This document shows, in pieces, positions 9,110 through 18,759 of a DNA stretch of 64,000 nucleotides. How positions within the stretch are numbered: the stretch's first letter is position 1; each line of letters starts with the position of its first letter. The stretch spans positions 1 to 64,000 of the forward strand of contig CAIQJP010000087.1 in assembly GCA_903872155.1 (NCBI GenBank). Direction: 5' to 3'. This DNA comes from an uncultured Actinomycetes bacterium (GTDB lineage Bacteria > Actinomycetota > Acidimicrobiia > Acidimicrobiales > Ilumatobacteraceae). The notes beneath the pieces were generated by a model, which saw only the letters and a program-made list of their open reading frames with translations, did no database searches and was not told where the DNA came from. A program made the translations under genes and the position numbers.

Positions 9110-9130
9110 ACCCCCATACGATCAAGATTG

Positions 9131-10081
9131 ATGTCTGTTGGTTCGCGCCCCTTGGTTCCGTCTCGCCTGTCTCCAGGTGGGGTCGCCGCTCATGGTGCGC
9201 GCAAAGAACCCACCTCGGTTTTCGGCGGCTATATCGTCCTGATGAAGTTGCGGGTCGTTGAGCTTCTGCTCATCACCACGGTTCCCACCATGGTTTTGGC
9301 CGAAAAGGGTTGGCCCAGTTGGGGCCTCGTGGCTATCACCCTCATCGGTGGCACGTTGGCCGCCGGCGGGGCAAACGCCATCAATATGGTCATCGACCGC
9401 GACATCGACGCCCTCATGGACCGCACCAAAACCCGTCCGCTCGTCACCGGTCTCATTCAGCCTCGAGAGGCCATGATTTTTGCATTAGCCCTGGAAGCGG
9501 TTGCTTTTGCGATCCTTTGGGTCGGAGCCAACCTGCTGGCAGCCTGTTTGGCGCTTTCGGCCACCTTGTTCTACGTCTTCGTGTATTCGTTGTGGCTCAA
9601 GCGGACGAGTCGCCAGAACATCGTGATCGGCGGAGCGGCCGGAGCAGTTCCGGTCTTGGTGGGCTGGGCAGCGGTGCAAAATTCACTGGCCTGGGAGCCA
9701 TTTATCCTGTTCATAGCCATATTTTTGTGGACGCCACCCCATTTTTGGGCGCTGGCCATTCGCCACGCCGACGAATATAAGGCCGCCGGGGTCCCGATGA
9801 TGCCGTCAGTTGCGACCATGAAGCAGACGGTCCGCCAGATGTTCATTTACGCCGTTCTGTTGACCGCTACGACCCTGATTTTGGGCCCCGTGGCCAACCT
9901 TGGGCTGACCTACATGATTTCCGCGGTCGTTTTGGGACTGGGCTTTATCGCGAGCACGATTGATTTGAGTCGAAACCCCACTGCGAGTCGGGCGATGCGA
10001 GTCTTTGGCTTTTCGATTACGTACGTGACGGTCCTTTTCACAGCCATGGCCGTTGATGTGTTCGTCAAGTACGGGATCTGA
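9131..10081 (+). CDS. ctaB: Protoheme IX farnesyltransferase (heme O synthase)
   Basis: It farnesylates heme B to heme O, the precursor of heme A for the aa3/caa3 oxidase encoded downstream. This is a UbiA-type membrane prenyltransferase with about nine membrane segments. The first Asp-rich motif NAINMVIDRDID (near residue 80) and the following DRTKTRP are intact. The second polar loop includes FLWTPPHFWALA and HADEYKAAGVPM. ATG at 9131 is preferred over the in-frame TTG at 9128. TACGAT ends eight bases before the ATG, suggesting a leaderless start. No ctaA (heme A synthase) is in the window. Confidence 0.95.
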   Translation: MSVGSRPLVPSRLSPGGVAAHGARKEPTSVFGGYIVLMKLRVVELLLITTVPTMVLAEKGWPSWGLVAITLIGGTLAAGGANAINMVIDRDIDALMDRTKTRPLVTGLIQPREAMIFALALEAVAFAILWVGANLLAACLALSATLFYVFVYSLWLKRTSRQNIVIGGAAGAVPVLVGWAAVQNSLAWEPFILFIAIFLWTPPHFWALAIRHADEYKAAGVPMMPSVATMKQTVRQMFIYAVLLTATTLILGPVANLGLTYMISAVVLGLGFIASTIDLSRNPTASRAMRVFGFSITYVTVLFTAMAVDVFVKYGI

Positions 10082-10251: not shown

Positions 10252-11871
10252 ATGACATCAATTGAAACCCATCTACCTACTGATGTGTCTGCATCGACGC
10301 CAGCCATTCCGACATGGCTGACTACTGCTGACCACAAAAAAGTCGGACGACTCTTTATCGGTACAAGCTTTGTTGCACTTCTGGCTGGGCTCGTCCTTGC
10401 CATCTTGGTGACCTTCGAGCGCATCAATGCCGACAGTTATCAAATTCTGAGTGACAACTCTGTTCCTCAAGTTTTGGCAGCTGTGCGTTTATTGCTCACT
10501 TTTGGAACAGTCGTTCCACTCTTGCTCGGGCTCTCAATCGCCATTGTTCCGTTGCAGTTGGGTGCACGTTCAAATGCTTTTCCGCGTTTAGCAGCAGCTG
10601 GTTTTTGGACTTGGCTGACTGGTCTCGGTCTTGCGTTGGCTTCGATCATCGGCAACGGTGGTCCAAGTGGTGGAAATTCAGATCTTGTTGATTTGTACTT
10701 GGCCGGTTCAATCGTTCTTGGTCTTGGTGTGTTGATGACTGCAACATCGATCGCGGTCAGTGTGCTCACCACTCGTGCCCCGGGCATGGGAATTTTGCGG
10801 GCACCGCTTTTCACTTGGTCATCACTGGTTGGTTCGTTGGCCTTAATTCTCACGATGCCGGTTTTGATTGGCACCACTGTGTACGTCTATATCGACCATC
10901 GTTACGCCCGCGCTGGCTTTGGTGGCAACACTGGCGTGAATCAGTGGATCGGTTGGGCGTTGTCGCAACCGTTTAGTTATCTCTTGGCAATTCCGGCCCT
11001 TGGCATCGTGCTTGATGTTGTACCGACAATTGGACGGACTCGTTTGGCGCAGCGCTCAGCAGCCTTCGGTGCTGTTGGTGTAGTTGCAGTTGCGGCTCTC
11101 GCAACAGTGACTCAAACAAGCATCACTCTTCCTTGGGATGGCGCGAAGTTCCTCGACAACGCCGGAACAAAGATTGCTGACCTTCTGCCCTTCTTGTTGT
11201 TGAACGTTGTTCCGGTTCTCGGATTGCTCGGCGTTCTTGGTTTGTCACTGTTGACACTGAAGTCAACTAAGCCAGTGATCAGCGCACCATTGACGTTCGT
11301 CTTGATTGGTTTGCTCGGAATTCTTCTTGGAGCTGCCGCACACATCGTTGGACTTGTGCAAGACGCCGGATTAAGTGGTTCGATTTACGAAGCCGGCGTT
11401 TATGTACCGATTACTTTCGGTGCAATCACTATTGCTTTCGGTGGTATCTGCTACTGGGGTCCCAAATTATGGGGACGTTCAATCTCCGACAAGGCCGCAA
11501 TTCCGTTGGCGTTGTTAGCCCTTCTTGCGATCGGACTTGATTCAATTCCGTATTACATCGCCGGGTTCGCTGATCAGCCAACTGGTCTCGTCAATGGCTT
11601 CTCGTACAGCGGTCCGCAAGATTTGTGGAATGCGCTGACGTGTGCAGGATTCGTTGTGATGTTGTTGGCGTCGATCGCATTTGTTGGCCTTGCACTCAAG
11701 AGCTTCACAAGTGGTGCAGTTGCTGGTAACGATCCCTGGGATGGAACAAGCCTTGAATGGGCGACCTCATCGCCACCGCCCGCCGAAAATTTTGCTGGTG
11801 TAATTGTCGTGAACTCGGCAACTCCGTTAGCTGATATCAAGTCCGGTTCATCGAATGGGAAGGTTGCCTGA
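10252..11871 (+). CDS. Cytochrome oxidase subunit I-like protein lacking all metal ligands
   Basis: A 539-residue polytopic membrane protein clearly related to the true subunit I at 14889-16904. Shared landmarks in order are xDHKKxG (residues 27-32), VPLQLGARxxAFPR (99-112), RAPLFTW (183-189), IPALGIVxDVVP (247-258), CYWGPKLW (400-407) and DPWDGTSLEW (494-503). Every redox ligand is gone: the heme a His aligns with Val78, the GHPEVY of the CuB site is SQPFSY (238-243), the HH pair has no counterpart, and HFH becomes Gly382-Val-Tyr384. Only four His occur in the whole protein, none at ligand positions. The frame is intact. Known subunit I proteins need these residues for catalysis, so a structural, assembly or regulatory role is inferred. 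Confidence 0.85.
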   Translation: MTSIETHLPTDVSASTPAIPTWLTTADHKKVGRLFIGTSFVALLAGLVLAILVTFERINADSYQILSDNSVPQVLAAVRLLLTFGTVVPLLLGLSIAIVPLQLGARSNAFPRLAAAGFWTWLTGLGLALASIIGNGGPSGGNSDLVDLYLAGSIVLGLGVLMTATSIAVSVLTTRAPGMGILRAPLFTWSSLVGSLALILTMPVLIGTTVYVYIDHRYARAGFGGNTGVNQWIGWALSQPFSYLLAIPALGIVLDVVPTIGRTRLAQRSAAFGAVGVVAVAALATVTQTSITLPWDGAKFLDNAGTKIADLLPFLLLNVVPVLGLLGVLGLSLLTLKSTKPVISAPLTFVLIGLLGILLGAAAHIVGLVQDAGLSGSIYEAGVYVPITFGAITIAFGGICYWGPKLWGRSISDKAAIPLALLALLAIGLDSIPYYIAGFADQPTGLVNGFSYSGPQDLWNALTCAGFVVMLLASIAFVGLALKSFTSGAVAGNDPWDGTSLEWATSSPPPAENFAGVIVVNSATPLADIKSGSSNGKVA

Positions 11872-12470
11872 TGCTTGCACTACCCCCCGCCTCGCAACCC
11901 GCACCGCGCCGCCAACTTTTTGTTGGCACCGCTGTCGCAGGAGCTGCTGGTCTCATGCTGATTGGCGGAATGATGGCCACCTGGCTGAAGTTCCGTGCTG
12001 ATGCTCCGGTACGGGAATCAATGAAGCGCGGATTCATCAAAGACTGGATGCCTGCCAAGATCGTGGTTCCCGAAGTTGCAGCAAATGTGATGTTGCTCGG
12101 TCTTTTGGTGGTTTGCGTGATGGCTCAGTGGGCTGTGTACTCCGCAAAGCGCAATGACCGTACTCACACGGGTCTTGCACTTGGTGTCACAGCGTTGATG
12201 ACGTTAGCGATTGTCAACGCTCAGATTTTCATCTGGACCCAAATGGGAGTTGGTGCCAAAGACGGCGCTTTCCATTCAATGTTCTACGCAGCAACCGGAA
12301 CGATGACCGTCTTGTTGTTGTCCGGTTTGGTGTACACCGCCGTTGCCGCATTCCGGTATCTCGGTGGTCGCACGAAAGAAGTCGAACTTGTTTCGGCTCA
12401 TGCCCTCTATTGGTACTTCCTCACTGCAGCGTTCTGTGCAGTGTGGTTCGTCATCTACGTGCAGAAGTGA
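11871..12470 (+). CDS. Cytochrome oxidase subunit III-like protein, degenerate
   Basis: A 199-residue protein with five predicted membrane segments (about 17-38, 68-89, 101-122, 137-160, 175-196). It aligns with the true subunit III at 16897-17508: PEVAANVMLLG corresponds to the first Glu-containing helix, SMFYAATGTMTVLLLSG to SSFYTLTGFHGVHVSVG, and HALYWYFLTA to IGLYWHFVDI. The conserved His residues of the latter two motifs are replaced by Thr, Leu and Tyr. Its ATG overlaps the stop of the COX1-like gene by one base (TGATG), so the pair is translationally coupled. I infer that it pairs with the ligand-free subunit I-like protein. Confidence 0.75.
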   Translation: MLALPPASQPAPRRQLFVGTAVAGAAGLMLIGGMMATWLKFRADAPVRESMKRGFIKDWMPAKIVVPEVAANVMLLGLLVVCVMAQWAVYSAKRNDRTHTGLALGVTALMTLAIVNAQIFIWTQMGVGAKDGAFHSMFYAATGTMTVLLLSGLVYTAVAAFRYLGGRTKEVELVSAHALYWYFLTAAFCAVWFVIYVQK

Positions 12471-12483
12471 CGAGGCAGAACTC

Positions 12484-13626
12484 ATGATTACAACAAGCTC
12501 AAAACTCTTCTACGGACTTGGTGCAGTTTCAGTTACTGCGGCCATCGTTTGGACGATCGCTAATGACGGTGGTGCCCTCGGAGCAGTTGCTCTGGTGTTC
12601 ATCGGCATCGCTTCGATCTTCCTTGGTGCGATTGCTTCGTATGTTCGTGACGGTCACGTTTTGTCGACCGATACTGCACAACACGATTCGGCACCAGCCG
12701 CACAGCGTGGACCTGGTCGTAGTTGGTTCCCCTTAGGTACTGCATTGTCGCTTGGCATGGTGGTTGTTGGTCTCGTGACCTCACCGGGAATTTTCAAAGT
12801 TGGCATCGCATTGTTATTGGCGATGCTCGGCGAATGGCTCATTCAAAACTGGAGCGATCGTGCTTCTGCTGACGCTGGTTACAACGAGCGAGTTCGCGGT
12901 TGGGTTGTACATCCTCTTGAAATTCCGATCGGTGGAGCTTTGTTGCTCGGTGCGATTGTGTTGTCGTTCTCACGAATCTTCTTGGCACTATCTGCCGAAG
13001 CCGGCCCGATTGTTTTTGCAATTCTTGGCGCACTTGTTTTGTTCTTTGGTTCGGTTTTGTCGATCCGTCGCGGCGTCAGTCGCGGTGTAGTTGGAGCTTT
13101 GTGTGGAATTGTTCTTGTTGCATTATCTGGAGTCGGAATTGCTACTGCTTTGTCAGGTGAACGCCAAGAATTGACGGTGGCTTCAGCCGAAGATCATTAC
13201 GCAGTTCACCCTTGCGGCGAAGAAGCAGAAGAGTACGACGGAAGCGCTGGTCGTGCAGTGTCTGCCAAGAGCAGTGTTGCAGCAACGGTGACTCTTAAAG
13301 ACGGTGTCTTGTACGCCGAGATGGATGGCTTCTCTGGACCTCTGTCGTCAATTACTTTGCAGCGTTCATTGAATGCCGACATTCTTTTCCAAAATGAAGA
13401 TGCTGGCATGCACCGAATGATTGTGACCTATGGCAAGACCGTTGAAGACCTTGGCGGAGGGGTCAAGAAAGAAACCGTGCTACAAACGTGCACAGCAATG
13501 ATTGGCCAAGGCGGCGCACAACAAATAGTTGTGCGAATTCCAAAGCCTTCGTTTGCTAGCGATGTGCCCTACACGATCACTGCTTCTGGCATTGAAGGTG
13601 CGTCGATTGAGGTGATGGTGCCGTGA
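12484..13626 (+). CDS. CtaF/COX4-like membrane protein fused to a cupredoxin-like domain
   Basis: A 380-residue protein with about seven membrane segments. The first four (residues 8-118) resemble actinobacterial oxidase subunit IV (CtaF), including a SWFP element where CtaF has SWWP and a GEWLIQ end. Three more segments follow (about 147-220). The C-terminal 160 residues are predicted extracytoplasmic and cupredoxin-like: NADILFQNEDAGMHRMIV fits the first copper His region, but the expected Cys-x(n)-His-x(n)-Met loop reads YTITASGIEGASIEVMVP with no Cys, His or ligand Met. ATG at 12484 follows the COX3-like gene by 13 bases. The last base triplet overlaps the coxB GTG. The fusion assignment is from pattern reading and needs structure prediction. 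Confidence 0.6.
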   Translation: MITTSSKLFYGLGAVSVTAAIVWTIANDGGALGAVALVFIGIASIFLGAIASYVRDGHVLSTDTAQHDSAPAAQRGPGRSWFPLGTALSLGMVVVGLVTSPGIFKVGIALLLAMLGEWLIQNWSDRASADAGYNERVRGWVVHPLEIPIGGALLLGAIVLSFSRIFLALSAEAGPIVFAILGALVLFFGSVLSIRRGVSRGVVGALCGIVLVALSGVGIATALSGERQELTVASAEDHYAVHPCGEEAEEYDGSAGRAVSAKSSVAATVTLKDGVLYAEMDGFSGPLSSITLQRSLNADILFQNEDAGMHRMIVTYGKTVEDLGGGVKKETVLQTCTAMIGQGGAQQIVVRIPKPSFASDVPYTITASGIEGASIEVMVP

Positions 13627-14873
13627 AAAAGATGATGAATCAACTTGGAGAGTCGATGAAGACTGCAAGACGTTGGCAGAATGCCTCAAAGGCAGCAATT
13701 GCTGTTTCGGCATTGAGTTTCTTGGCAAGTTGTGCCAAGGATGCACCGCAAGATACTTGGCAGCCTGCCGGACCTAATGCTGAGCGCATTGACAATTTGC
13801 AACGACCAGTTTTCTATGTCGCTGGCATTGTTGGCGTCATCGTCTTTGCTGCAGTGGCGTGGGTGATCTTCCGATATCGCGATCGTGGCCAAGCAATACC
13901 TGAGCAGACTCACGGTAAGCCAGCGCTGGAAATTGTTTTGACAGTCATTCCGGTTTTGATTCTCTTGGGTGTTGCCATTCCAACAGCAGGAACAATCTTC
14001 AAGTTGGCCAAGACCAGCGACACCGAAATGACAATCAATGTCACGGGTCAGCAGTGGTGGTGGGAATACGACTATCCGGCTGCAGGTTCCAATGCCGAAC
14101 AGTACGGAATCACTGCCCCGATCGTTACTTCTGGTCAGCTCGTGATCCCAGAAAACACCAAAGTGTTGTTACGAGTCACCAGTCGCGACGTCATCCACTC
14201 ATATTGGATTCCGAAGTTGAACGGTAAGAAGGACAGCGTTCCTGGCCGCGTGCACCTTTTGCGCATGGAGGGTTCGAAACCTGGTATCTACGCCGGACAG
14301 TGCACCGAATTCTGTGGTTTGTCGCACGCATATATGCGTATGGAAGCAGTCGTGTTGTCACGAGCTGACTACGACAAATGGGTGGCCAATCAACTTGAAC
14401 CGTATAAAGCACCAGAAGCTGGTACTGAAGCCGCAGCTGGCGAAGCATTGTTCATTCAACAATGCAGTCGTTGTCACCAAGTCAACGGCTTGGCCAACCC
14501 TGATGGAAGTTTGATTATCTCGGCTCCTGATCAGTATCTCGTTTCGGGTGCAGCACCTAACTTGACCAACCTGATGACCCGCAACACGTTTGCCGGCGCC
14601 TCATGGGACCTGCTCACACCGGAATGTCGCGACAATGTCTGGAACGCTTCGTCAGCCTATTTCGGTGAGCGCTATCTCGATGGCGTATCGGCTGATTGCT
14701 TAAACCAAAAAGACCTTCGTGAATGGTTGCGTAATGCGCCGGCCAAGAAGCCGATGTATGCCGACCCGACCAAGTTGACGACCACGGGCGGTAAGTACCG
14801 CGGTATGCCGGCACTAGGACTCACTGAAGATCAAATCAACACCATCATCGCTTACTTGCTCGAGCGGAAATAA
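13623..14873 (+). CDS. coxB: Cytochrome c oxidase subunit II with C-terminal cytochrome c domain (caa3 type)
   Basis: It receives electrons at CuA and passes them to subunit I. The N terminus is a lipoprotein-type signal (lipobox LASC, Cys37), followed by two membrane helices. CuA ligands are all present: His192, Cys227, Glu229, Cys231, His235 and Met238 in CTEFCGLSHAYM. A fused cytochrome c domain has CSRCH at 281-285 and a probable axial Met395 (RGMPAL). The heme domain is longer than usual, with extra Cys residues between. GTG at 13623 overlaps the previous stop. ATG at 13656, with GGAG upstream, is a good alternative start. Confidence 0.95.
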   Translation: MKKMMNQLGESMKTARRWQNASKAAIAVSALSFLASCAKDAPQDTWQPAGPNAERIDNLQRPVFYVAGIVGVIVFAAVAWVIFRYRDRGQAIPEQTHGKPALEIVLTVIPVLILLGVAIPTAGTIFKLAKTSDTEMTINVTGQQWWWEYDYPAAGSNAEQYGITAPIVTSGQLVIPENTKVLLRVTSRDVIHSYWIPKLNGKKDSVPGRVHLLRMEGSKPGIYAGQCTEFCGLSHAYMRMEAVVLSRADYDKWVANQLEPYKAPEAGTEAAAGEALFIQQCSRCHQVNGLANPDGSLIISAPDQYLVSGAAPNLTNLMTRNTFAGASWDLLTPECRDNVWNASSAYFGERYLDGVSADCLNQKDLREWLRNAPAKKPMYADPTKLTTTGGKYRGMPALGLTEDQINTIIAYLLERK

Positions 14874-14888
14874 CGGGAGAACACTCAG

Positions 14889-16904
14889 ATGACCATCATC
14901 GAACGTCCCTCCACTGAAGTGGCCATCGCCGGCGGTACACCTGCGGGTGTCAAACCGAGCGAAGCTCTCGGTGTTTTCAAGCGGCCTGCCGCTTCTACAA
15001 GTTGGCGCGACTGGTTAGTCACAGTCGACCACAAGAAGCTCGGCATTATGTATGGAGTTACCGCCTTCTTCTTCTTCATCGTGGGTGGTGTTGAAGCGCT
15101 GCTTATTCGTTTGCAGTTGATTGCTCCTAATGGAAAAGTTCTCAACGCCGATCAGTACAACCAGATGTTCACGATGCATGCCACCACCATGGTGTTCTTG
15201 TTCGTGATGCCGATGGCTGCGGCTTTTGCCAACTATTTTGTGCCATTACAAATTGGCGCACGCGACGTTGCATTCCCACGCATCAACGCGTTTGGTTTTT
15301 GGTGTTTCCTCTTTGGCGGATTGTTCTTGAACTCATCGTGGTTCTTGGGCGGCGGTGCTGATGGTGGATGGTTCATGTATGCACCAAACAGCAGCACGCT
15401 TTTCTCACCAAGTCACGGAATTGACTTTTGGACAGTTGGTTTGCAGATCACAGGTATTGCGTCGTTGACCGGTGCAATTAACCTCATTGTGACGATCCTG
15501 AATATGCGCACCAAGGGTATGAAGATGATGCGCATGCCGATCTTCACCTGGATGGTTCTTGTCACGCAGTTCTTGTTGTTGTTCGCGATTCCCGTGATCA
15601 CGGTCGCACTTTTCCTCTTGACTTTCCAGCGCTCATTCGATGCAACATTCTTTGACGTTGCATCTGGCGCCGACCCACTTTTGTGGCAGCACTTGTTCTG
15701 GATTTTTGGTCACCCTGAGGTGTACATCATGATTTTGCCGTCGTTCGGCATAGTCAGTGAAGTCATCCCAGTGTTCTCGAAGAAGCCATTGTTTGGTTAC
15801 CCGATCGTGGCGATGTCAGGTGCTGCAATCGGATTTGTCGGTTGGGGAGTGTGGGCTCACCACATGTTCGCATCAGGTCTTGGTCCAGTGTCGGTCACCG
15901 TCTTCTCGATGGCCACTATGGCGATTGCAGTGCCGACCGGTGTCAAGATTGTCAACTGGGTCATGACGATGTGGGGCGGAAAGCTCACTTTCACCATTCC
16001 GATGATGTTCGCGATTGCGTTGATTGTTCAGTTCACCATTGGTGGTTTGTCTGGTGTCACGCACGCCGTAGCGCCATCTGATACCCAGCAAACAGATACC
16101 TACTACATCGTTGCCCACTTCCACTACGTCTTGTTCGGTGGCGCAGTATTCGGGTTGTTCTCGGGCTTCTATTACTGGTGGCCCAAGATGTTCCGTCGTC
16201 AACTCAACAACACCATCGGTAAATGGAACTTTTGGTTGATGGTGATCGGAATGAACCTCACCTTCGGACCGATGCACATTCTTGGTCTGCAGGGTCAACC
16301 TCGCCGGATGCAGGTGTGGACCGAAGCTCGCGCTGGTGAAGGTTTCTTCAACCTCGGATTCTGGAACAGGATCGCATCGATTGGTTCGTTCACACTCGGC
16401 ACTGGTGTCTTGTTGTTCTTGGTGAATGTGGTGTACACCCACAAATCCAAGAAAGTTGCGATTGCACCACTCGATCCTTGGGACGCTCGCAGCCTTGAAT
16501 GGATGACCCAAAGTCCTCCACAAGAACACAACTTTGATGTGCTGCCGACCGTAAGTCACTTGGATGAGTTCTTCCATCGCAAGTACGAAACCGATTCGTC
16601 AACTCATGGCGTGACGCAGGCTCATAGTGCTGAAGAGGTTTTGGCCGAACTCAATGCGCACCCTGATGAGCACATTCACATGCCATCACGTTCGTACTGG
16701 CCAATTTTGTTGGCCTTTTCACTACCAGTCATTGGTTACGGTGTCATTTACAACCGTACGTTGATGGCGGTTGGTGCTGGCTTGATTTTGCTCACCATGT
16801 TTGGTTGGGCCATGGAACCATCGACGTCACCCGACGACGATTTCGATCCCCCGGCACCTGGTGAAGGTGGCGGCCACACGAAGGAGCTGTCGCCCCTTGG
16901 CTGA
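14889..16904 (+). CDS. coxA: Cytochrome c oxidase subunit I
   Basis: The catalytic subunit of the aa3/caa3 oxidase, reducing oxygen and pumping protons. All ligands are present: heme a His97 and His412, heme a3 His410, CuB His275, His324 and His325. The cross-linked Tyr279 in GHPEVY is also present, so this is an A-type enzyme. The last ~110 residues add a Glu/His-rich loop and two further membrane segments (PSRSYWPILLAFSLP and following). At 671 residues it is longer than a minimal subunit I because of this tail. It follows coxB by 15 bases with a GGGAGA ribosome binding site. Confidence 0.97.
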   Translation: MTIIERPSTEVAIAGGTPAGVKPSEALGVFKRPAASTSWRDWLVTVDHKKLGIMYGVTAFFFFIVGGVEALLIRLQLIAPNGKVLNADQYNQMFTMHATTMVFLFVMPMAAAFANYFVPLQIGARDVAFPRINAFGFWCFLFGGLFLNSSWFLGGGADGGWFMYAPNSSTLFSPSHGIDFWTVGLQITGIASLTGAINLIVTILNMRTKGMKMMRMPIFTWMVLVTQFLLLFAIPVITVALFLLTFQRSFDATFFDVASGADPLLWQHLFWIFGHPEVYIMILPSFGIVSEVIPVFSKKPLFGYPIVAMSGAAIGFVGWGVWAHHMFASGLGPVSVTVFSMATMAIAVPTGVKIVNWVMTMWGGKLTFTIPMMFAIALIVQFTIGGLSGVTHAVAPSDTQQTDTYYIVAHFHYVLFGGAVFGLFSGFYYWWPKMFRRQLNNTIGKWNFWLMVIGMNLTFGPMHILGLQGQPRRMQVWTEARAGEGFFNLGFWNRIASIGSFTLGTGVLLFLVNVVYTHKSKKVAIAPLDPWDARSLEWMTQSPPQEHNFDVLPTVSHLDEFFHRKYETDSSTHGVTQAHSAEEVLAELNAHPDEHIHMPSRSYWPILLAFSLPVIGYGVIYNRTLMAVGAGLILLTMFGWAMEPSTSPDDDFDPPAPGEGGGHTKELSPLG

Positions 16905-17508
16905 AACAGCAATCTCCCACGATCATGACGCAGGTCATGGTGCTCATTCCTCGACTGGTTTGTCAAACAACAAACTCGGTATGTGGATGTTCCTCGGTTC
17001 AGAATGCTTGCTATTTGGCGGACTGATTTCGACCTACATGTTGTACAAGGGTCGCGTTAACTCTGGTCCGCAACCGAACAACATCTTTGATATTCCCTTC
17101 ACCTCGGTGAGTTCGTTCGTCTTGTTGATGAGTTCATTGACGATGGTGTTGGCTGTGTCTGCGGCTCAACGTAAAGACGAGCGCAACATGAACTTGTGGC
17201 TAATCGTGACGGCGCTTCTTGGAGCAACCTTCGTTGGTGGCCAGGTGTATGAATTCACATCGTTCTACCGCGAAGGTCTGGGCTTCACGACCAGTCTGTT
17301 CGGTTCAAGTTTTTACACCTTGACCGGATTCCACGGTGTTCACGTATCAGTCGGAATCATCATGCTGATGGCCTTGGTTGGCATGAACCGCAATAAGCGG
17401 ATTCCTGGTGACAGGGCCGAAGTTGTCGAATTGATCGGTTTGTACTGGCACTTCGTTGACATCGTCTGGATTATCATTTTCACCCTCGTCTACCTGATTC
17501 CGTCCTGA
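16897..17508 (+). CDS. coxC: Cytochrome c oxidase subunit III
   Basis: A 203-residue subunit III with five membrane segments (SNNKLGMWMFLGSECLLFGG at the first; YTLTGFHGVHVSVG and LYWHFVDIVW later). It has the conserved Glu and His residues that its degenerate paralogue at 11871 lacks. I chose the TTG at 16897, overlapping the coxA stop by eight bases, because AAGGAG is exactly ten bases upstream and no ATG occurs before the conserved core. The N terminus is His/Asp rich (SHDHDAGHGAH). Confidence 0.93.
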   Translation: MAETAISHDHDAGHGAHSSTGLSNNKLGMWMFLGSECLLFGGLISTYMLYKGRVNSGPQPNNIFDIPFTSVSSFVLLMSSLTMVLAVSAAQRKDERNMNLWLIVTALLGATFVGGQVYEFTSFYREGLGFTTSLFGSSFYTLTGFHGVHVSVGIIMLMALVGMNRNKRIPGDRAEVVELIGLYWHFVDIVWIIIFTLVYLIPS

Positions 17509-17518
17509 GGAGCGACCC

Positions 17519-17851
17519 ATGAGTACCGCTACCGAACATGTAGAACACACCGAAGGCCACGAGGCCGAACACCATGGTTTGTCCGACAAGCAATACATCT
17601 ACGTCGCGTTGATTTTGGCTGCCTTGACGGCGATCGAAGTTTCTACGTATTACATCGACTTCGGTCCATTTTTTATGCCGACTTTGTTCATCTTGATGAC
17701 CGTGAAGTTTGTGACCGTGGTGTCGTACTTCATGCACCTCAAGTTTGACAACAAGCTTTTTACATATCTTTTCTATTCAGGATTGATTTTGGCCATCTGC
17801 GTGTATTGCGGATTTTTAGCTACCTTTAAATTCTTCTTGCAGAAGGGCTGA
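17519..17851 (+). CDS. coxD: Cytochrome c oxidase subunit IV, prokaryotic type
   Basis: A 110-residue protein with three membrane segments and a His/Glu-rich N-terminal tail. The central MTVKFVTVVSYFMHLKFD pattern is characteristic of the small COX4_pro subunit of caa3/bo3 oxidases. GAGGAG lies just upstream of the ATG. It is the fourth structural subunit of the operon. Confidence 0.9.
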   Translation: MSTATEHVEHTEGHEAEHHGLSDKQYIYVALILAALTAIEVSTYYIDFGPFFMPTLFILMTVKFVTVVSYFMHLKFDNKLFTYLFYSGLILAICVYCGFLATFKFFLQKG

Positions 17852-17856
17852 CCACC

Positions 17857-18759
17857 ATGGTCGGGGAGATTGCCGCGAATCCCTGGCGATTTCAACCACA
17901 TGTTGAAGTGTGGTTACTCGTAGTTTTTCTGGTTGCGTCCTACATCTACGTGGTGCGAGTGCTTGGTCCTAAAGCAGTACCAGATGGTGAACCAGTTGTC
18001 ACCCGCCGTCAATTGACCTGTTTCATTGCTGGCATATCAATTTTGTGGCTGGCCACTGATTGGCCGATGCACGATATTGCCGAAGAATATTTATATACGG
18101 TGCACATGGTTCAACATATGTGCCTGACCTATTTCATGCCACCACTTGTCATTCTCGCAACACCCGAATGGTTTGTTCGAACACTGGTCGGTGAAGGGCG
18201 CGCATATCGAGCGCTCCGCTTCATGACATTCCCAGTACTGGCAGGTTTGTTATTCAATGTCGGAATCATGGTGAGCCATATACCTGGTGTCGTTAATGCC
18301 TCAGTATCTAATGGTCCATTGCACTACTTCGTTCACGTAGTTCTGGTTTTAACGTCCATTTTGATGTGGCTTCCAGTGTGTGGTCCATTTAAAGAATTCC
18401 AGATCACGCCGATGGCCAAGATGATTTATCTCTTTTTGAATAGCGTAGTGGCCACCGTTCCTGCTGGTTGGCTGACCTTTGCCGAAGGTGTGGTGTACAA
18501 GCACTACAACATTCCCGTACGCGTGTGGGGTCTCTCGGTGAGTAACGACCAACAGATCGCTGGGGCCATTATGAAATTGGGTGGCTCAACATTTCTGTGG
18601 TCAATTATCGCAGTCATGTATTTCAAACATTTTGTGAAGACATTCCAAAAAGAGAATGAAAATGACTATGCCCATAAAGAAGAAGTATTGACGACAGCTG
18701 ATGTTGAACGGGCATTCCAAGCGTCACCTCCGGTGGAAGAACCGAAATCGCATCAATAG
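17857..18759 (+). CDS. ctaG: Cytochrome c oxidase assembly protein, CtaG (caa3) family
   Basis: A 300-residue protein with about seven membrane segments, needed in related bacteria to assemble active caa3 oxidase and thought to act in copper delivery. The motif TDWPMHDIAEEYLYTVHMVQ (about residues 68-87), rich in His and Met, is diagnostic for caa3_CtaG. HYFVHVVLVLTSILMWLP follows. It lies five bases after coxD and ends the oxidase operon. The C-terminal 40 residues are a charged cytoplasmic tail. Confidence 0.92.
   Translation: MVGEIAANPWRFQPHVEVWLLVVFLVASYIYVVRVLGPKAVPDGEPVVTRRQLTCFIAGISILWLATDWPMHDIAEEYLYTVHMVQHMCLTYFMPPLVILATPEWFVRTLVGEGRAYRALRFMTFPVLAGLLFNVGIMVSHIPGVVNASVSNGPLHYFVHVVLVLTSILMWLPVCGPFKEFQITPMAKMIYLFLNSVVATVPAGWLTFAEGVVYKHYNIPVRVWGLSVSNDQQIAGAIMKLGGSTFLWSIIAVMYFKHFVKTFQKENENDYAHKEEVLTTADVERAFQASPPVEEPKSHQ

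Follow-up and report, generated by a model that had tools for sequence, protein, structure and literature searches.

Introduction

Among soluble proteins, kinases included, pseudoenzymes are a familiar phenomenon. Among respiratory proteins, a "deranged" COX1-like protein of Acetobacter, encoded in a cluster with ctaB, is said to have lost all of its cofactor residues and was proposed to have a structural role, and acidophilic Acetobacteraceae are described as having kept a deranged bc1 complex after ligand loss (PMC10715153). The present work concerns a 64,000-nucleotide stretch of DNA from an uncultured member of the Ilumatobacteraceae (order Acidimicrobiales, phylum Actinomycetota; contig CAIQJP010000087.1), hereafter the window, in which three consecutive genes, gI, gIII, and gIV, encode proteins related to cytochrome oxidase subunits I, III, and IV. 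They lie between ctaB and coxB, just upstream of the genes for a functional caa3 oxidase, and are referred to here as the ghost set. The gI protein shares with CtaD/CoxA, subunit I of the A-type aa3/caa3 oxidases, the (predicted) 12-helix fold, the neighbouring genes, and the cytoplasmic motifs DHKK, VPLQxGAR, RAPGM, WxPKxxGR, and DPWxxxxLEW. Unlike CtaD/CoxA, it contains neither the ligands of heme a, heme a3, and CuB nor the D- and K-channel residues.

The Acetobacter protein resembles gI in being COX1-like, ligand-free, and encoded near ctaB, so that a ligand-free COX1 as such has a precedent. It is, however, a single protein of the Alphaproteobacteria, whereas the ghosts comprise three proteins, occur across an order, are coupled to a caa3 oxidase, and have intermediates; the two cases are compared by description only (PMC10715153). 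The deranged bc1 complex is a complex III, and the part of the source available mentions no working paralogue beside it, whereas the ghost set is oxidase-type and stands beside its working twin (PMC10715153). A reading of the window made from its sequence alone (the sequence-only reading) had known of no description of such a set. This holds for the three-gene set, of which no description was found in the literature searched, which covers only part of the field, but not for the single ligand-free protein of Acetobacter. As far as that literature goes, the three-gene set, its order-wide coupling to caa3, the relatives whose subunit I has heme a histidines and whose gIV has a type-1 copper motif, and the likely origin of the fused cupredoxin are new.

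Loss of Cofactor Ligands and Retention of the Predicted Fold in gI

The gI protein was recognized by the Pfam COX1 profile (PF00115) with 119 bits against a cut-off of 34.8, and scored 192.9 bits against the NCBIfam equivalog CtaD_CoxA (TIGR02891), far short of its cut-off of 670.75. Alignment of gI with the window coxA by MAFFT revealed that the six ligand histidines were replaced by V, Q, Q, T, V, and V, i.e., V and V at the heme a pair, V at heme a3, and Q, Q, and T at CuB, and all four ligand-bearing helix stretches of gI were found to be free of histidine. The same loss was observed in a profile alignment of 48 members of the window family with mycobacterial CtaD. gI thus lacks the six histidines that mark subunit I of heme-copper oxidases. 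The D-channel Asp, Glu242, and the K-channel Lys were also replaced, the equivalents of D91, N98, E242, and K319 (residue names by bovine numbering) being all changed, so that gI does not have the residues of a proton-pumping A-type enzyme and no pump is expected. On these residues, proton pumping or oxidase activity of the window gI is excluded.

Structure prediction with AlphaFold2 gave a model of gI with a predicted local distance difference test (pLDDT) value of 84 and a predicted template modelling (pTM) score of 0.87. The best match among solved structures was the CtaD chain 6adq_F (Z 40.5, root-mean-square deviation (rmsd) 2.7 over 472 residues, 22% identity). Misalignment as the cause of the ligand loss was ruled out by the MAFFT alignment, the profile alignment with PDB chains, and the structure match. 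A second functional oxidase was likewise ruled out by the ligand and channel loss, the whole genome (97% complete) showing only two COX1 and two COX3 matches.

Gene Layout of the Window

The features are as follows, all on the forward strand.

9128..10081, +, ctaB, heme O synthase (PF01040, 221.5 bits); upstream neighbour, start not refined
10252..11871, +, gI, ligand-free subunit I-like protein of 539 aa with a predicted 12-helix oxidase fold (PF00115, 119 bits)
11871..12470, +, gIII, subunit III-like protein of 199 aa (PF00510, 27.6 bits; PDB COX3 chains, best E 5.5e-06)
12484..13626, +, gIV, 380 aa, with an N-terminal subunit IV-like part, further helices, and a C-terminal cupredoxin-fold domain (PF12270, 21.6 bits; AlphaFold2; alignments)
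13276..13623, +, cupredoxin-fold domain of gIV, about residues 265–380, without the Cys-His-Met copper motif (VIA-align; sequence)
13623..14873, +, coxB, subunit II with a fused cytochrome c domain (PF00116, PF00034)
14889..16904, +, coxA, functional subunit I with all six ligand His and a C-terminal subunit IV-like stretch (PF00115, 514.5 bits; ligand table)
16912..17508, +, coxC, functional subunit III (PF00510, 77.9 bits)
17519..17851, +, small COX4_pro-type subunit (PF03626, 45.8 bits)
17857..18759, +, ctaG (Caa3_CtaG), copper assembly factor (PF09678, 142.5 bits)

The intact open reading frames (ORFs) and their tight coupling, claimed in the sequence-only reading, were confirmed: gI and gIII overlap by one base, gIV and coxB by four bases. 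Pfam matches bore out the placement between ctaB and coxB on the strand of coxBACD-ctaG. The gap from ctaB to gI is 170 bases. The start of gIV was taken as the ATG at 12484; the mechanical ORF call began at a TTG at 12343. The fusion of cytochrome c to coxB identifies the window oxidase as of the caa3 kind. The C-terminal subunit IV-like extension of coxA scored 26.6 bits with PF12270, just under the cut-off, and a separate COX4-type gene is present besides. A CtaA-like gene, a Sco-type gene, and a SURF1 fragment at a contig edge were also found in the window genome.

The gIII and gIV Proteins and the Probable Origin of the Cupredoxin Domain

The gIII protein passed the COX3 cut-off (PF00510; 27.6 bits, cut-off 23.8) and reached 43.6 of the 190 bits of NCBIfam aa3_CtaE_Actin, thus missing that cut-off. 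The match of gIV to Cyt_c_ox_IV (PF12270), over residues 5–121, fell short of the cut-off (21.6 against 26.9 bits). The AlphaFold2 model of gIV (pLDDT 75.6) placed helices within residues 4–235 and strands within residues 265–378, and the predicted C-terminal domain aligned with 4hcf_B (Z 10.9, 94 aligned residues, rmsd 2.1; VIA-align), identifying a cupredoxin fold. A C-x-x-H..M copper motif was sought in the window gIV sequence and was absent, the domain lacking the His, Cys, His, and Met ligands. Subunits III and IV of ordinary oxidases carry no redox ligands. Hence, the loss of ligands "in three subunits" put forward in the sequence-only reading is meaningful only for subunit I and the cupredoxin domain, where it stands. 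Its description of the cupredoxin as reminiscent of subunit II was wrong; an origin from subunit II was rejected in favour of a Cupredoxin_1-like domain of the blue copper type.

We read twenty loci, selected for a gIV-type match, from outside the order, some of them from the same class and others from different classes of the phylum. In 17 of them, a separate membrane cupredoxin follows ctaG and ends a coxB-coxA-coxC-cox4-ctaG run (one contig starts at cox4); in the remaining three, the cupredoxin lies after cox4 (L104), was found alone (L107), or forms one protein with a CcoN-like part upstream of coxB (L112). None of the 20 loci contained a ghost gI or gIII of the window kind. This accessory cupredoxin of other Actinomycetota resembles gIV in combining helices with a cupredoxin domain; it differs from the window gIV in being a separate gene, in having the Cys-His-Met motif (present in 13/13 of those printed), and in having no subunit IV-like part. 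The gIV of basal ghosts matched accessory cupredoxins at up to 112 bits, and the C-terminal half of gIV is therefore most simply derived, we infer, from such a protein that changed position and was joined to a subunit IV-like part.

Selection on the Ghost Genes and the Retained Face of gI

The ratio of nonsynonymous to synonymous substitution rates (dN/dS; Nei-Gojobori) was obtained against L248, the least saturated pair, whose gI is 94% identical to that of the window; most other pairs lay near or beyond synonymous saturation. The values were 0.046 for gI, 0.083 for gIII, and 0.126 for gIV, with 0.054 for coxA, 0.046 for coxB, 0.036 for ctaB, and 0.028 for coxC in the same pair. These values indicate that the ghost set is not a relic and is under purifying selection.

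To locate what gI has kept, we took the 218 positions at which 90% or more of 76 functional coxA sequences share the residue and scored them in the 38 ghosts nearest to the window gI (37 of the window family and L140), with helix borders set by hand and the topology taken from established COX1 structures. The conserved residue was retained at 61% of positions in the cytoplasmic loops, 31% in the inner halves of the helices, 24% in the outer halves, and 11% in the outer loops. The same inner-to-outer slope was observed in the ghosts that keep the heme a pair (heme-a-type, 20) and in an intermediate group (27). The outer side of ordinary oxidases houses CuA, cytochrome c, and the heme propionates. 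As judged by these retained residues, the ghosts gave up this outer side and kept the cytoplasmic one.

Coupling to the Oxidase Across the Order

Among 168 genomes of the order with a completeness of at least 90%, gIV and the orthologous coxA occurred together in 105, gIV alone in nine, that coxA without gIV in none, and neither in 54 (Fisher p 5.5e-35, kinship ignored; cut-offs set by eye at coxA ≥ 590 bits and gIV ≥ 95 bits). Six of the nine genomes with gIV alone correspond to L135–L140, where the contig stops in coxB or early coxA in five and coxA is split over two frames in the sixth (L136). Of two others, G229 (L120) has a contig that stops in coxA and G602 a 70%-identical piece of coxA at a contig edge. 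The ninth, G083, is a genuine exception and is taken up below. Outside the order, no gIV-type match spanning profile positions 1–230 was found among the matches listed for 198 genomes of the class and 296 of the phylum, both samples containing a few genomes from the order itself.

A scan of named genomes confirmed 134 loci, of which 80 were kept. gI and gIII are adjacent in 80/80, accompanied by gIV in 77/80, and the order ctaB-gI-gIII-gIV-coxB-coxA holds as far as the listed ORFs reach; in one locus, the ORF call places the gIII start ahead of gI. In L046, ctaB and gI are 3.6 kb apart. Gene order is conserved in the loci read across the order, and the genes are not isolated relics of one genome. 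The named records are mostly metagenome-assembled genomes (MAGs), many of them Ilumatobacteraceae. The isolate Ilumatobacter nonamiensis YM16-303 (L190) carries ctaB-gI-gIII-gIV-coxB and the start of coxA up to the contig end, which excludes a binning artefact. Six MAG records titled "Bifidobacterium breve" or "Ferrithrix thermotolerans" (L224, L245, L247, L248, L251, and L195) hold a cluster of the Ilumatobacteraceae type, and their titles look wrong.

A Series of Ligand States Among the Ghosts

The ligand positions of 88 ghosts of the order were tabulated with 93 COX1 sequences defined by their six His (183 rows with two fragments of the split L136 coxA, which were set aside); most of L001–L032 and L085–L094, being near copies or repeats, were omitted. 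None of the three CuB histidines was present in 82/88 ghosts and a single one in the other six, never more. Both heme a histidines were kept in 20/88, seven of these 20 having the heme a3 histidine in addition. The gIV of 16 of the 20 heme-a-type ghosts showed a Cys-x-x-His..Met cupredoxin motif, e.g., "CDFHPNM" in L054, with the upstream His seen in "YHN." Among 77 readable gIV ends, the heme a pair and the type-1 copper motif occurred together in 16, neither in 55, the heme a pair alone in four (L068, L135, L138, and L139), and the copper motif alone in two (L136 and L137); the other 11 of the 88 were not counted, because nine loci end within gIV, L066 has no gIV, and the gIV of L071 is truncated. 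The window family has lost both sites and kept the cupredoxin domain, and many lineages with neither site have dropped the cupredoxin entirely. As regards the proton channels, the heme-a-type ghosts keep E242 in 8/20 and D91 in 2/20; K319 was not among the five to six commonest letters listed for this group or for the other ghosts. SURF1 was unmatched in the heme-a-type bearers G068, G088, and G097 and matched in G066 and G073. A gIV without cupredoxin often ends in a His/Asp/Glu-rich tail (L058, L075, L084, L126, L138, and others) that could bind metal.

Phylogenetic analysis of 113 rows (midpoint root, quick search, long branches; 17 ghosts omitted) separated 71 ghosts from the functional coxA sequences, both those of the order and those of other classes, by a branch with 100% support in the Shimodaira-Hasegawa-like approximate likelihood ratio test (SH-aLRT). 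These sequences show that the window ghosts have a common ancestor with the ghosts in which the heme a pair and the type-1 copper motif persist. On this tree, loss of heme a took three changes and loss of the copper site four. Their joint loss, suggestive in the raw counts, amounts to three independent pairs, which is not significant. One course of events would lead from an oxidase duplicate to an oxygen-inert relay from type-1 copper to bis-His heme a, with CuB and usually heme a3 gone, and from there to a cofactor-free scaffold in most lineages; we put it forward tentatively, as possible but somewhat doubtful. If true, it would constitute a stepwise, order-wide fossil series from a respiratory enzyme to a pseudoenzyme complex.

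Possible Roles of the Ghost Set

We propose, giving the proposal about an even chance, that gI, gIII, and gIV form a redox-centre-free membrane complex of A-type (I-III-IV) architecture that serves the caa3 oxidase of the adjacent downstream genes as a scaffold. The proposal is based on purifying selection, the co-occurrence in 105/105 genomes, the position between ctaB and coxB, the gI-gIII adjacency, the intact predicted fold, the kept cytoplasmic loops, the loss of the channel residues in gI, and the ligand-free Acetobacter protein that is likewise encoded with ctaB (PMC10715153); a dead copy that is intact and selected suggests a job of its own. The broader claim of the sequence-only reading, that the set is selected, non-catalytic, and linked to the oxidase, finds good support in dN/dS, the same 105 genomes, the 80/80 adjacency, and the fold. 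The role would probably lie in assembling or stabilising the oxidase. The three proteins would bind one another, and the complex would bind the oxidase or its assembly factors, with the retained cytoplasmic face as the probable working surface. It would act most likely in the maturation of CoxA/CoxB, which receive heme A from CtaB/CtaA and copper from CtaG/Sco, and a transfer of this kind would agree with gI lying between ctaB and coxB; alternatively, the ghost set might be an accessory module that stays bound.

Several observations weigh against a scaffold for the oxidase. Over 44 family loci and the window, the mean protein distance was 0.859 for gI, 0.758 for gIII, and 1.164 for gIV, and 0.318 for coxA, 0.281 for coxC, 0.524 for coxB, and 0.388 for ctaB, a family-wide divergence of the ghosts about threefold that of coxA; beyond the closest pair, the ghosts thus diverge faster than the oxidase and are constrained, but less so than their catalytic twins. 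Rate covariation singled out no partner: the highest ghost values were 0.479 for gIV-ctaB and 0.431 for gI-gIV, with a method whose positive controls failed (coxA-coxC −0.012, coxA-coxB 0.069). About 5 kb separate gIV from coxB in L083 and L147. In G083 (99% complete, 6% contamination), coxB-ctaG is missing from the ghost locus, replaced by an ABC transporter pair, and the gI and gIII frames are still open; its gIV is broken after residue 144 (L071:8919-10148), and a search for SURF1 in this genome gave no match. This locus may represent an oxidase loss through which the ghost set has started to decay, or a chimeric contig. Finally, the window genome has matches of the SURF1, Sco, and CtaA types, so that no known assembly factor appears to have been replaced. 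The idea that the ghost set substitutes for SURF1 is unlikely, as SURF1 occurs in the window genome (the edge fragment) and in 62/118 genomes of the order, many of them ghost bearers.

A permanent structural part, i.e., a pseudo-oxidase protomer in partnership with CoxABC or within a bc-aa3 supercomplex, the cofactor-free copy replacing a catalytic one, is the less probable but serious alternative. The ghost set is constrained and accompanies the oxidase, as such a part would, and CtaD chains from actinobacterial III2-IV2 supercomplexes are among the best matches of gI to solved structures, within one Z unit of Rhodobacter subunit I; this likeness to CtaD is, however, expected from ancestry and uninformative on partners, and gI has kept least of its outer face, the docking side for subunit II and cytochrome c in ordinary oxidases. 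We consider it improbable that the ghost set still carries electrons from type-1 copper to heme a without reducing O2, the window family being a late derivative that perhaps holds a cofactor through other residues. The heme a pair in 20/88 ghosts and its pairing with the copper motif in 16/77 speak for such a relay; both sites are absent from the window and the tabulated family members, and the joint loss rests on few events. An equally small chance is given to reuse of the scaffold outside oxidase assembly, as a channel, a lipid or small-molecule transporter, or a sensor: voids would be expected at the former heme places, the outer loops diverged freely, and evolution was faster than that of coxA, but the operon position and the co-occurrence with the oxidase argue otherwise. 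That the genes are decaying relics of a second oxidase operon is very remote. The broken gIV of G083, with coxB-ctaG also gone, resembles decay, whereas open frames and a conserved gene order in the loci read across the order, and low dN/dS, do not; for the window itself, dN/dS and the intact frames refute it.

It is unusual for a multi-subunit respiratory complex to have a core paralogue that is free of cofactors, under purifying selection, and found with its working twin across an order. The intermediates with heme a histidines and a type-1 copper motif make the order of loss and the ancestral function testable, and a ghost set acting as an assembly scaffold would bear on how heme A and copper enter subunit I.

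A CcoN-Like Protein Fused to a Cupredoxin

Directly upstream of coxB, L112 (7090-9219; G109, from a different order of the class) encodes a protein of 709 aa that combines a COX1-type part poor in ligands, with CcoN as its closest match (94.6 bits), with a membrane cupredoxin carrying the copper motif. It appears to be an independent pairing of a ghost with a cupredoxin, from the cbb3 branch. Ten aligned rows of the CcoN-like part, L112 included, had no His at H61, H290, and H376, and the H240 column fell in a gap; this cross-family alignment is weak. No caa3 genes were matched in the 17 CcoN-like loci read. Relatives of the CcoN-like part (L155–L164 and L165–L181 among the loci) were found in 50/149 genomes of the class searched, and C-x-x-C-H, recalling CcoO, was present in 4/6 of their printed tails.

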